Source of the DNA: Natroniella sulfidigena
GTDB lineage: Bacteria; Bacillota; Halanaerobiia; Halobacteroidales; Halobacteroidaceae
DNA length: 64,000 nucleotides
Direction of reading: 5' to 3'
NCBI RefSeq assembly: GCF_023223645.1
Contig: NZ_JALKBY010000006.1
Location: forward strand, 62,001 to 126,000
The notes under the pieces are model-generated. The model worked only from the letters and a program-made list of their open reading frames with translations. It did not search any database and had not been told where the DNA came from. Positions 1,451-61,411 of this stretch are shown here, in pieces. Within the stretch, counting starts at the first letter, position 1; each line of letters starts with the position of its first letter. The position numbers and the translations under genes are program-made.

Positions 1451-1472
1451 TATTTACCTCCCGGAATAATTT

Positions 1473-1846
1473 TGATATAAAGTGGCACTGTGCCACTTTA
1501 TATCAGTTGACAGTTTACAGTGTACAGTTGACAGTGGATAGAAAAAATCTAAGAAATGATTTTTTCATCACAAAGGGTTCAAAGAACCCGAAGGAAAATC
1601 ATTAAAACCATTAAAACAAATCCAAACTATCATGAGGAATGTTTCGCAGTGACATCTAGATTTTTTCGTTTAGTTTCTTGATGAACCGGAAATCAAATCA
1701 GAGCATGAATTAGTTAATTTTCCTATTTTAAAATTAACTTGCTCTTGTTTGATTGGAGGTGAGTCTTAGAAACTCAGAAAAAATCTTTCCGAACGAGAAA
1801 CTTTCCTCATGTTAATAGCATATCGAAAGTGACACAATATTGTAAT
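1473..1846. repeat. Composite fold-back repeat, about 370 bp, with nested inverted repeats
   Basis: No gene is seen in 1451-1910. The left end is a perfect palindrome (1473-1487 and 1491-1505, 3-base centre, TGATATAAAGTGGCA). The right end is GTGACACAATATTGTAAT (1829-1846). Between them are reiterated ACAGTTNAC units (1505-1540), a small hairpin (stem 1575-1580/1584-1589), and a large fold-back from about 1631 to 1811 whose arms begin CATGAGGAA and end TTCCTCATG. Inner paired blocks include AGATTTTTTC/AGAAAAAATCT and AATCAAAT/GTTTGATT. It looks like a MITE-like element holding others. It lies between two minus-strand genes. Confidence 0.75.
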
Positions 1847-2709: not shown

Positions 2710-2823
2710 TTGATATAGCTTAAGTTTAAGGCTGAGGTTAAGTTTAAGTCAACCACTAGAAACATAAGGGCTTAGCTCTTACTTAGACTTAGACTCAGAC
2801 TCAAACTTAAAATGAATCGTAAT
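2710..2823. repeat. TTGATAT fold-back repeat, TTAAG/TTAGACT arm type
   Basis: Begins TTGATAT seven bases from the Shine-Dalgarno of the DUF218 gene and ends near CGTAAT. The arms are built from reiterated TTAAGTTTAAG and ACTTAGACTTAGACT units that pair imperfectly. The loop reads AAACATAAGGGCTTAGCTCT. Near-identical copies lie at 21829-21939 and 43608-43756, with a degenerate reverse copy in 50790-50915. Confidence 0.8.
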
Positions 2824-7383: not shown

Positions 7384-7590
7384 TTCACTTTATATCAATA
7401 GTTTATAGTTGATAGTGGATAGTTAAAACAATAAAACACATTACCCCTTAGTTATAAAGGTTTTAAGAGGGTTAGATTTTGAATTTTCCATCCAGTCTAA
7501 AAAACAGACTGTTTGTGAAACCCATAGAAACCATATCTACTATCAATTTTAAACTATCAATTATCAATTGAAGTTACACAATATTATAAT
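7384..7590. repeat. Fold-back repeat, ATAGTTTAT/TATCAATT arm type
   Basis: Left arm has reiterated ATAGTTTATAGTTGATAG units (from 7399) and the right arm reads TACTATCAATTTTAAACTATC and onward, giving an imperfect inverted repeat that ends in a variant terminus ACACAATATTATAAT (7576-7590). Nested inside, in minus orientation (about 7490-7540), is a small hairpin with CAGTCT/AGACTG stem (7493-7498/7506-7511) and the ATGGTTTCTAT flank shared with copies at 1556, 15136, 43692 and 58556. Confidence 0.65.
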
Positions 7591-15063: not shown

Positions 15064-15082
15064 TTTCTATTCCTCCCTTTAT

Positions 15083-15311
15083 TGATATTTAGTGGCACTT
15101 TGCCACTAAATATCAGTGTACAGTTTACGGTAGATATGGTTTTTATGGATTTCACGAAGGGTCTTGATAAAGACCCGTAGGTACAGTTAACAGTTAAAAG
15201 CATTAAATCCTTAAAATCAAAAACCACATGAGCTTGTAAGTATAAGTCTTTTTAGAGATCTTTTTTTATTTTTGAATTTTAACTGTAAACTGTTCACTGT
15301 TAACTGTCAAC
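15083..15311. repeat. Fold-back repeat filling the GloB operon leader, ACAGTTTAC arm type
   Basis: Starts with a perfect palindrome TGATATTTAGTGGCA-CTT-complement (15083-15115), continues with GTGTACAGTTTACGGT units, a nested small hairpin (15136-15181, stem GGGTCTT/AAGACCC), and closes with AACTGTAAACTGTTCACTG units. It lies between the likely promoter (15330-15335 -10) and the Shine-Dalgarno, so it should be transcribed as a roughly 260-base structured leader. Confidence 0.75.
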
Positions 15312-21828: not shown

Positions 21829-21939
21829 TTGATATTAAGTGTAAGTTTAAGGCTGAGGTTAAGTTTAAGTCAACCATTAAAAACATAAGGTTTTAGCTCT
21901 TACTTAGACTTAGACTCAAACTTAAGCTTAATTGTAATT
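21829..21939. repeat. TTGATAT fold-back repeat, TTAAG/TTAGACT arm type
   Basis: Second copy of the 2710-2823 element: same TTAAGTTTAAGG arm, CAACCATTAAAAACATAAGG loop and TTAGACTTAGACT arm, ending ATTGTAATT. It lies between the M24 peptidase gene and the ccdA ribosome site. Confidence 0.8.
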
Positions 21940-26113: not shown

Positions 26114-26250
26114 TTTATATCAATTTACAATGCACAATTAACAATTGTCAATTAAAGATCAAACCTTTAATTTCAAAAGCTTTTAATAATTTTTAATTAT
26201 AAATTGTACATTTCGTCAATTGTCCATTGTGAAGATATTTTATAATATCA
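26114..26250. repeat. Fold-back repeat, ACAATT arm type
   Basis: ATATCAATTTACAATGCACAA and ATTAACAATTGTCAATT units on the left pair with ATTATAAATTGTAC and CAATTGTCCATTGTG units on the right. It lies between the MCP stop and the CheW ribosome site inside the operon. Confidence 0.6.
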
Positions 26251-36226: not shown

Positions 36227-36410
36227 AGCAGTGTACAGTTAACAGTTGACGGTTGACAATTAAAAACCTAAGTTCAAAGAAGCTCTAAGGCTATAGATAT
36301 AAGACTTTTCATAGTTCTTAAGCTTTTTTAAGATTTTGATTCATAACTGTAAACTGTAAACCGTAAACTGTCAACTTAATATTGTGGCACTTTTATGCCA
36401 CAATATTGTA
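36227..36410. repeat. Composite fold-back repeat, ACAGTTAAC arm type, with joined end
   Basis: GTGTACAGTTAACAGTTGAC (36233 onward) pairs with AACTGTAAACTGTAAACCG units on the right. The right end has a perfect 12-6-12 hairpin AATATTGTGGCA (36378-36407), which looks like an element of two joined termini. It lies between the ICMT-like and DUF2933 genes. Confidence 0.7.
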
Positions 36411-36656
36411 TTAATGACAATCTTCCTCTTCCTCATCACCTTTATCCTTATGACACATTCCTTTCATCATAAATAAATGCATCAATGGACATAACAAAAA
36501 GATCAACCATCTAAAATTACCACCTGCCAAAGTATCTCTTCCTACTTCTAGGCCTGTTCCTCCTGCAAACCACCATATTCCAGCAAACATAGCTAGACAA
36601 CAAAGTAACATCATCCACATATGGTTACCACCATGCTGATGCCCTTTCTTAGACAT
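36411..36656 (-). CDS. DUF2933 His/Cys-rich membrane protein
   Basis: An 81-residue protein with two membrane helices. The pattern MWMMLLCCLAMFAG and LLCPLMHLFMMKGMCH is diagnostic of DUF2933. Histidines at the N-terminus (KGHQHGGNH) and a Cys-His end (EEDCH) are metal-ligand-like. DUF2933 genes are regularly found next to copper-translocating ATPases; function unknown. RBS GAGGAGG. Confidence 0.85.
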   Translation of the reverse strand: MSKKGHQHGGNHMWMMLLCCLAMFAGIWWFAGGTGLEVGRDTLAGGNFRWLIFLLCPLMHLFMMKGMCHKDKGDEEEEDCH

Positions 36657-38801: not shown

Positions 38802-38963
38802 TTGATATATTGTGTCACTTTTCATTCGTGCAATAATGTGTTTGTGTAGGGGCGAACCTATGTGTTCGCCCTGGTTTTGATTTCATCCTTGGGGCAGACA
38901 CATGGGTCTGCCCCTACAAATATCATTTCTGCCCGCCAAAACAAAAGTGACACAATATTGTAA
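38802..38963. repeat. ATATTGTGTCAC element with GTAGGGGC element nested inside
   Basis: Outer inverted ends: ATATTGTGTCACTTTT (38807-38822) and its exact complement, followed by TTGTAAT (38943-38963). Inside lies a separate 74-base element (38845-38918) bounded by TGTAGGGGC and GCCCCTACA, with two hairpins (38850-38871, GGGCGAAC/GTTCGCCC; 38891-38914, GGGGCAGAC/GTCTGCCCC). GTAGGGGC-type repeats occur in many bacterial genomes; here one sits exactly in the loop of another repeat. Confidence 0.85.
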
Positions 38964-40144: not shown

Positions 40145-40254
40145 TTGATATTTAGTGTCAGTGTGAGTAGTGTGTGTGAGTAAAAGCAAAACCTTAGTCC
40201 TTATGCTTTTGACCTCACTCACACTCGCACACATAACTGACACAATATTGTAAT
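40145..40254. repeat. TTGATAT fold-back repeat, GTGTGAG/CACTCAC arm type
   Basis: TTGATATTTAGTGTCAGTG at the left and CTGACACAATATTGTAAT at the right. The arms repeat GTGTGAGTAGTGTGTG against CTCACTCACACTCGC. The loop is ACCTTAGTCCTTATGCTTTT, similar to the complement of the 2710-2823 loop. The copy at 61296-61411 differs at few positions and has a longer right arm. Confidence 0.85.
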
Positions 40255-43607: not shown

Positions 43608-43756
43608 TTGATATATAGCTTAAGTTTAAGGCTGAGGTTAAGTTTAAGTCAACCACTAGAAACATAAGGGCTTAGCTCTTACTTAGACTTACCTCCGGGT
43701 TTATAAAAACCCTTCGTAATAAAAACCATTTACTCAAACTTAAACTTAATTCTAAT
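43608..43756. repeat. TTGATAT fold-back repeat with small hairpin inserted
   Basis: Third copy of the TTAAG/TTAGACT-type repeat (compare 2710, 21829). The right arm is interrupted after ACTTAGACTTA by a 38-base hairpin (43692-43729; stem GGGTTT 43697-43702, AAACCC 43707-43712, flank ATGGTTTTTATTACGAA on the minus strand). It lies between the copA promoter and the divergent copper-storage gene. Confidence 0.8.
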
Positions 43757-59187: not shown

Positions 59188-59345
59188 TAGATAGTTTACG
59201 GTTTACAGTTGACAGTTAAAATCACTTAAAACCTTGCTTCATTACCAAATCCAAGTTACAAATGTTAACTACCTTAATAATAAATGGCTTGATATTGTTA
59301 ATTCTTTAAGAACTAATTAACTATCAATTATCAATTTTCAACTCT
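59188..59345. repeat. Fold-back repeat, ACAGTTGAC/ATCAATT arms
   Basis: GTTTACGGTTTACAGTTGAC on the left against CTATCAATTATCAATTTTC and CAACTCTCAACT on the right. Lies between the pilD and pilV-like genes; no gene seen. Confidence 0.55.
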
Positions 59346-59382
59346 CAACTAAAACTATTTCATAACATAATCCTAAATTTCA

Positions 59383-61295: not shown

Positions 61296-61411
61296 TTGAT
61301 ATTTAGTGTCAGTGTGAGTAGTGTGTGTGAGTAAAAGCAAAACCTTAGCCCTTATGTTTTTGACCTCACTCACACTCACACTCACACACATAACTGACAC
61401 ATAATTGTAAT
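61296..61411. repeat. TTGATAT fold-back repeat, GTGTGAG/CACTCAC arm type
   Basis: Second copy of the 40145-40254 element: TTGATATTTAGTGTCAGTG start, loop ACCTTAGCCCTTATGTTTTT, right arm with several extra ACTCACAC units, ACACATAATTGTAAT end. It lies between pilC and a prepilin gene, next to the Shine-Dalgarno. Confidence 0.85.

Follow-up and report, generated by a model that had tools for sequence, protein, structure and literature searches.

Intergenic DNA of Natroniella sulfidigena contains hundreds of small hairpin-forming repeats, many of which have common ends and differing interiors. Such elements raise the question of how a single pair of ends comes to enclose arms spelled in different words. 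Here we address this question in a window of 64,000 nucleotides (G000:C29:62001-126000) of the 2.63 Mb draft genome of the salt-loving Natroniella sulfidigena. An initial annotation of this window had described fold-back repeats with similar loops and ends and different arms, and had proposed that the arms are rewritten as short reiterated words while their pairing is kept. For comparison we used its sister species in the same genus, Natroniella acetigena Z-7937, the closest named relative, whose GspF is 90% identical. We set 833 kb of N. sulfidigena, about one third of its genome, against first 659 kb and then 1.05 Mb of N. acetigena, and supplemented this comparison by genome searches.

The arms of the elements are tandem heptamers or hexamers, and we named the classes by these words: A, GTGTGAG arms; A1, GTCTGTG words; B, TTAAG arms (subtypes B1 and B2); C, ACAGTT words; D, ACAATT words; E, ATAGTT words; F, AGCTATGAG words; and G, the TGTAGGGGCG/TGTAGGGGC palindrome. 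The window contains the following features.

1472..1506, + strand: further left-end palindrome, adjoining an ACAGTT-word element
2710..2823, + strand: B1 element with TTAAG/TTAGACT arms; with respect to the ends, its loop runs opposite to that of A
7390..7590, + strand: ATAGTT-word (E) fold-back with right end TTACACAATATTATAAT; hairpin X nested at about 7493-7537
15082..15116, + strand: left-end palindrome TTGATATTTAGTGGCACTTTGCCACTAAATATCA(G), the terminal hairpin of an ACAGTT-word element
15117..15311, + strand: ACAGTT-word (C) fold-back core; the N. acetigena site has a core of AATCAGT/AATCAGG words along with a left hairpin of its own
15133..15182, + strand: nested hairpin X (GATATGG..TTTCACGAA[stem]CGTAGGT) between words of the 5′ arm
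21829..21938, + strand: B1 element
26114..26246, + strand: ACAATT-word (D) fold-back
36227..36377, + strand: ACAGTT-word (C) fold-back core
36378..36412, + strand: right-end hairpin of the C element
38802..38963, + strand: TGTAGGGGCGAACC palindrome as core, enclosed by the same two ends, left and right
40145..40253, + strand: A element with GTGTGAG arms, composed of left end TTGATATTTAGTGTCA, 5′ arm, loop AGTAAAAGCAAAACCTTAGTCCTTATGCTTTTGACC (40179-40214), 3′ arm and right end TGACACAATATTGTAA
43608..43756, + strand: B1 element with a small hairpin nested in the 3′ arm; the N. acetigena site has an ATAGTT/ATAATT-word core with matching ends
43692..43733, + strand: the nested mini-hairpin CCTCCGGGTTTATAAAAACCCTTCGTAATAAAAACCATTT in the arm of the 43608 element
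59188..59349, + strand: ACAGTT-type fold-back; in the N. acetigena ortholog the 5′ arm has one more heptamer and the 3′ arm is missing
61296..61410, + strand: A element with GTGTGAG arms; the orthologous N. acetigena site (L051) has an ACAATT-word element instead

Every string quoted in the initial annotation was located at its position, and folding bore out both of its groups. Folded as single-stranded DNA, the GTGTGAG-arm element at 40145 reaches -23.4 kcal/mol (z -6.2) and the one at 61296 reaches -22.4 kcal/mol (z -4.6), values that no shuffle equalled, and the TTAAG-arm elements at 2710, 21829 and 43608 have z scores of -3.4, -2.6 and -2.8 against shuffles. The reiterated-word fold-backs placed at 7384, 15083, 26114, 36227 and 59188 were found as described. 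These elements are short, non-coding, multi-copy and bounded by terminal inverted repeats, as MITEs are. The 40145 element has 42 matches in the N. sulfidigena genome, about half of them near full length, and A elements are 101-115 bp long. The B element is comparable to A in copy number, with 36-46 blast matches in the N. sulfidigena sample and 9-11 in that of N. acetigena. An A-like element of N. acetigena has GTGTCTG/GTCAGTG arms and a similar-looking loop.

The ends recur far beyond the window. The left end, TTGATATNNNGTGNCA, has 57 exact matches in N. sulfidigena, 86 in N. acetigena, 7 in a genome of the same family (G004) and 40 in one of another family of the same order (G011), and a reversed control pattern has none in any of the four. 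The right end, TGNCACANNATTGTAA (reverse complement TTACAATNNTGTGNCA), occurs 52 times in N. sulfidigena and 67 times in N. acetigena, against 0 for its control; elsewhere TTACAATNNTGTGNCA has one match in G005 and none in the remaining genomes (21 searched). At least five core types lie inside these same ends, among them A, C with extra terminal hairpins, F, and the TGTAGGGGCG palindrome (G). Base preference adjoining the ends is weak, with T at -4 and A at -1. The start TTGATAT reported for the A and B elements is present in all five (40145, 61296, 2710, 21829 and 43608). The reported right end (T)TGTAAT holds as TTGTAA(T) at 40145, 61296 and 21829 and is degenerate at 2710 (TCGTAAT) and 43608 (TTCTAAT).

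The left end was also seen in other settings. In G011 the motif flanks unrelated elements (L153:1501-1941, L135, L140, L145, L149), at least one of them of about 440 bp with left ends on both sides, and in G004 (L137, L142, L146) it occurs with AGCTATGAG-word cores and also with a different, AT-rich core (CACTGAGGCATTGTGTGG..). A compound element at L034:15809-16178 unites half an A arm, TGTAGGGGC palindromes, a nested hairpin X and half an F core between the same ends.

The loops connect the A and B classes. When a hidden Markov model of 21 A loops was run over 1.49 Mb, its first non-A matches were loops of TTAAG-arm elements (E values 2.7e-4, 2.7e-4, 5.7e-4, 0.01 and 0.02). Reciprocally, a model of 15 B loops, mostly B2, found A loops as its first matches beyond the B class (E 0.012-0.045). 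Thus the opposite-strand similarity of A and B loops noticed in the initial annotation goes beyond chance, over a short match of about 25 bases. B loops occur in both orientations: in all cases with a callable upstream end, GTCAACC adjoins the left end in B1 (13 of 13) and the right end in B2 (7 of 7); B2, the subtype matching the A loop best, therefore shares the A loop orientation. The data support a single loop and end combination whose arms are spelled in either of two vocabularies, A or B, that look unrelated. The idea of one loop and end profile across several arm classes stands for these two, most strongly for B2, and does not extend to the ACAGTT, ATAGTT and ACAATT loops, which are not significantly related. 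In a 7 kb set of loops between heptamer arms, the lowest E values of the A-loop profile were 0.006-0.017, compared with 0.032 in the shuffled control, and nothing stood clearly above controls.

Reiterated words are abundant in the intergenic DNA of both species. Period-7 runs number 160 in N. sulfidigena and 138 in N. acetigena, where second-order Markov controls give 1 and 0, and period-6 runs 39 and 11, where the controls give 0 and 2. Relaxing the threshold slightly yields 40 and 34 distinct canonical heptamers. In 55 of 111 cases adjacent runs are inverted copies within one mismatch (28.6 when shuffled, maximum 41), so that convergent tandem heptamers of the type known from Xanthomonas are present. 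The two arms agree in their majority core word in 51 of 75 elements, where 39.9 are expected (maximum 49). ACGGT variants within the ACAGTT class show no coupling between arms (Fisher p = 1), and elements whose arms mix vocabularies were found. The coupling of arms lies at the level of vocabularies, not of single words. Copying from arm to arm was rejected because variant words are uncoupled between the arms.

Other regularities of the words are less telling. By run-level shuffles the abundant heptamers resemble the end heptamers TTACAAT and TTGATAT (0.003-0.006; 0.16 at the level of distinct words), which is only suggestive of words being copies of the end heptamers. Aligned words are richer in information than shuffled ones (5.8 against at most 5.26 bits), but a universal skeleton, YNMYTRN, was discarded as evidence since the reversed pattern matches nearly as often. 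Of 299 genomes in the phylum, 20 have arrays of ACAGTT heptamers, in a patchy distribution. Within one heptamer array of G008 (L239:1467-1548) the words drift from ATAATTG by way of ACAATTG to ACAGTTG and then return, which captures a change of vocabulary inside a single array. One contig starts with about eleven perfect AAGTCAC heptamers (L049:1-77); since it begins in an array, long arrays may break assembly.

Intergenic regions of the two species were aligned by their flanking genes. An automatic classifier, crude enough that some cases moved on reading the sequences, divided 43 syntenic regions with repeats into 14 with different classes, 7 with the same or overlapping classes and 22 with an element in a single species. 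One region (L191:10855/10898 against L256) was classed as one-sided, but on reading a C core faces a GTCTGTG-word (A1) core, with the ends aligned. At the same site and with the same end orientation N. acetigena often has a different core: A against B, A against ACAGTT, or B against ATAGTT. Where A at L184:4633 faces C at L264, the flanks are contiguous through the ends on both sides with no offset. The ends are also aligned between A at L182:13869 and B at L177, where the loops can be aligned in the same orientation, and between the B element at 43608 and an ATAGTT-word (E) element (L163). For A at L192:9962 against C at L173 the right side is exact and the left side has about 30 extra bases in N. 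acetigena, and a further core switch at an orthologous site, with ends aligned, sets G at L197:7600 against C at L223. Because elements are dense, co-occupancy of an intergenic region is unsurprising, and only the exact alignment of ends is surprising. Where both species have the same C core (L185:1293 against L167), the arms are almost identical and the loop is more diverged. Since same-core arms are near identical and core switches occur at aligned ends, the arms are not hypermutable and cores seem to change as blocks. Two elements are consistent with half-replacements with breakpoints in loops: a D element lies within a B loop, the 3′ half being gone (L168:6654), and a TGTAGGGGC core stands in place of the 5′ half of a C element (L042:14548).

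In sum, the ends occur genome-wide, one end pair holds several cores, A and B have a homologous loop, and cores differ at fixed sites. We lean towards the reading that these are MITE-like non-coding fold-backs whose identity lies in their ends, TTGATATNNNGTGNCA/TGNCACANNATTGTAA, and whose cores are replaced as blocks. Almost any hairpin-forming core may fit between the ends, be it a TGTAGGGGC palindrome or a loop flanked by inverted tandem arrays of 6- or 7-base words. An enzyme that acts on the ends in trans would have dispersed the copies. Where a site is already occupied, the core would be replaced as a block, either through ectopic template switching or gene conversion with the ends as anchors, or through insertion into the loop and subsequent loss of the old arm. 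Word arrays would vary locally by slippage, and the vocabularies would represent different amplified cores, not one gradually rewritten arm. Counting against this reading, the ends are short (about 16 bp) and offer little homology for RecA-type exchange. We infer mobility rather than observe it, since no transposase gene lies between such end pairs in the 1.9 Mb sampled or in the relatives' loci examined, and syntenic comparison and a joined-flank search recovered neither a clean empty site nor a target-site duplication; all matches from the latter search were due to chance or lay among other word repeats. More tentatively, and with some doubt on our part, a recombination or mobilisation process might swap whole fold-back cores between fixed chromosomal ends like cassettes, so that address (the ends) and payload (arms and loop) evolve independently.

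Two candidate activities were set aside: IS200/IS605 TnpA as the mobiliser, as the TnpA (Y1) loci do not have TTGATAT/TTACAAT ends as element boundaries, and hairpin cleavage by SbcCD, as a search for SbcD gave nothing above the family cut-off. In N. acetigena a TnpA-like reading frame contains a TGTAGGGGCAGG palindrome (L209, G001:C36:13680-13868).

Block replacement has to be weighed against separate MITE families whose ends are common through one transposase and whose insertions at the same preferred intergenic targets were independent in the two species, with no exchange of cores. Each core class is indeed a multi-copy family of its own, and the 22 single-species regions and the base preferences next to the ends fit as well; but these preferences are weak, and several sites nevertheless have ends at about the same nucleotide in the same orientation. 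Homology of the A and B loops is left unexplained without common ancestry, and the half-replaced elements suggest overwriting. We judge independent insertion unlikely, though it is a serious contender.

Less probable still is gradual rewriting in place, a mechanism for the original proposal by which slippage would carry mutations in a word along the tandem array and copying templated by the hairpin would carry them into the other arm, so that one element gains a new vocabulary with its loop and ends unchanged. A and B2 do have the same ends and a loop in the same orientation, a relationship can be read into the hexamers of A (GTGAGT), its N. acetigena variant (GTCAGT/GTCTGT) and B (TTAAGT), abundant heptamers resemble the end heptamers, and the arm at 59188 changed in length by one heptamer. 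However, variant words within a class are uncoupled between arms, mixed arms exist, same-core arms are near identical between species, and single sites switch between unrelated cores such as TGTAGGGGC and ACAGTT. The apparent rewriting is thus better read as replacement of whole cores. We regard it as very improbable that the elements act as structured RNA (terminators or processing signals) and that selection on the hairpin accepts any complementary arm: their intergenic position, their strong folds (computed as DNA) and the pairing of nested hairpins X despite varied stems would suit such a role, but an Rfam search of the window matched no family and many sites are empty in the sister species. 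Nor does the A-class alignment have the base-pair covariation of a structured RNA family, with a covariation term of -0.05 kcal/mol and a double change in 3 of 16 pairs.

Fold-backs of this general form have parallels in known systems. Foldback and Galileo differ from the Natroniella elements in being eukaryotic and of kilobase scale, and Galileo has a known P-type transposase. These Drosophila elements are similar in their long, internally repetitive inverted repeats and structural dynamism (PMC3573991). BrickBuilt and MITE464/PgRS of Porphyromonas gingivalis are likewise intergenic and MITE-like; their TIRs are similar but the tandem repeats inside are unrelated, and they are predicted to form long stem-loops and vary in repeat number among strains (PMC4596501). 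Their repeats are 23 and 41 nt long, their TIRs resemble the IS5-family ISPg1, and the accessible part of that report mentions no core swap at one site (PMC4596501), whereas the Natroniella elements have 6-7-nt words in inverted arms, a loop common to classes and no IS partner that we found. REPINs likewise have conserved ends, a variable hairpin-forming interior and compensatory changes, and their spacers mainly retain length and hairpin capacity (PMC3116915). The ends of REPINs, however, are REP palindromes moved by RAYTs (PMC3116915). In Natroniella they are 16-bp sequences with no RAYT linked, the TnpA (Y1) loci lack these end boundaries, and the TGTAGGGGC palindrome is only one of several cores.

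Heptanucleotides are over-represented in many genomes, and the TAACTGA repeats of Beggiatoaceae, Cyanobacteria and Bacteroidetes also form patchy intergenic heptamer arrays, but these are direct repeats of one word and not inverted arms between common ends (PMC4679880). The GGGAATC arrays of Xanthomonas are degenerate intergenic heptamer arrays, with 70-75 inverted pairs able to form stem-loops, that vary in length and sequence at orthologous sites; they differ in using one G-rich vocabulary, and the accessible portion of the report mentions no transposon-like common ends (PMC4692102). Every ingredient of the Natroniella elements thus has a published precedent in BrickBuilt, REPINs or the inverted heptamers of Xanthomonas, and the statement that no standard MITE behaviour gives such a pattern was too strong in view of BrickBuilt/MITE464 (PMC4596501) and REPIN spacers (PMC3116915). 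Among open-access papers we found none that describes these features together with a switch of cores between orthologous sites.

Unexplained as they are, heptamer arrays and hairpin MITEs are found widely in intergenic DNA, and a sister pair that keeps the ends and changes the cores at the same sites makes the origin and turnover of such arrays directly testable. The elements also serve as a warning that preserved pairing in intergenic hairpins is insufficient to infer RNA function.

The mini-hairpin X, GATATGG..TATGG.TTTCACGAA[variable stem]CGTAGG, is present in dozens of copies and is hosted by the arms of most classes and by TGTAGGGGC palindromes. Beyond the copies in the window at 15133-15182 and 7493-7537, it occurs at L034, L042:14611, L171, L172, L192, L221 and other sites. 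Its stems vary while pairing is kept, as in GGGTCTT/AAGACCC, GAGTCTT/AGACTC, CAGTCTG/AGACTG and AGGGCT/AGCCCT.
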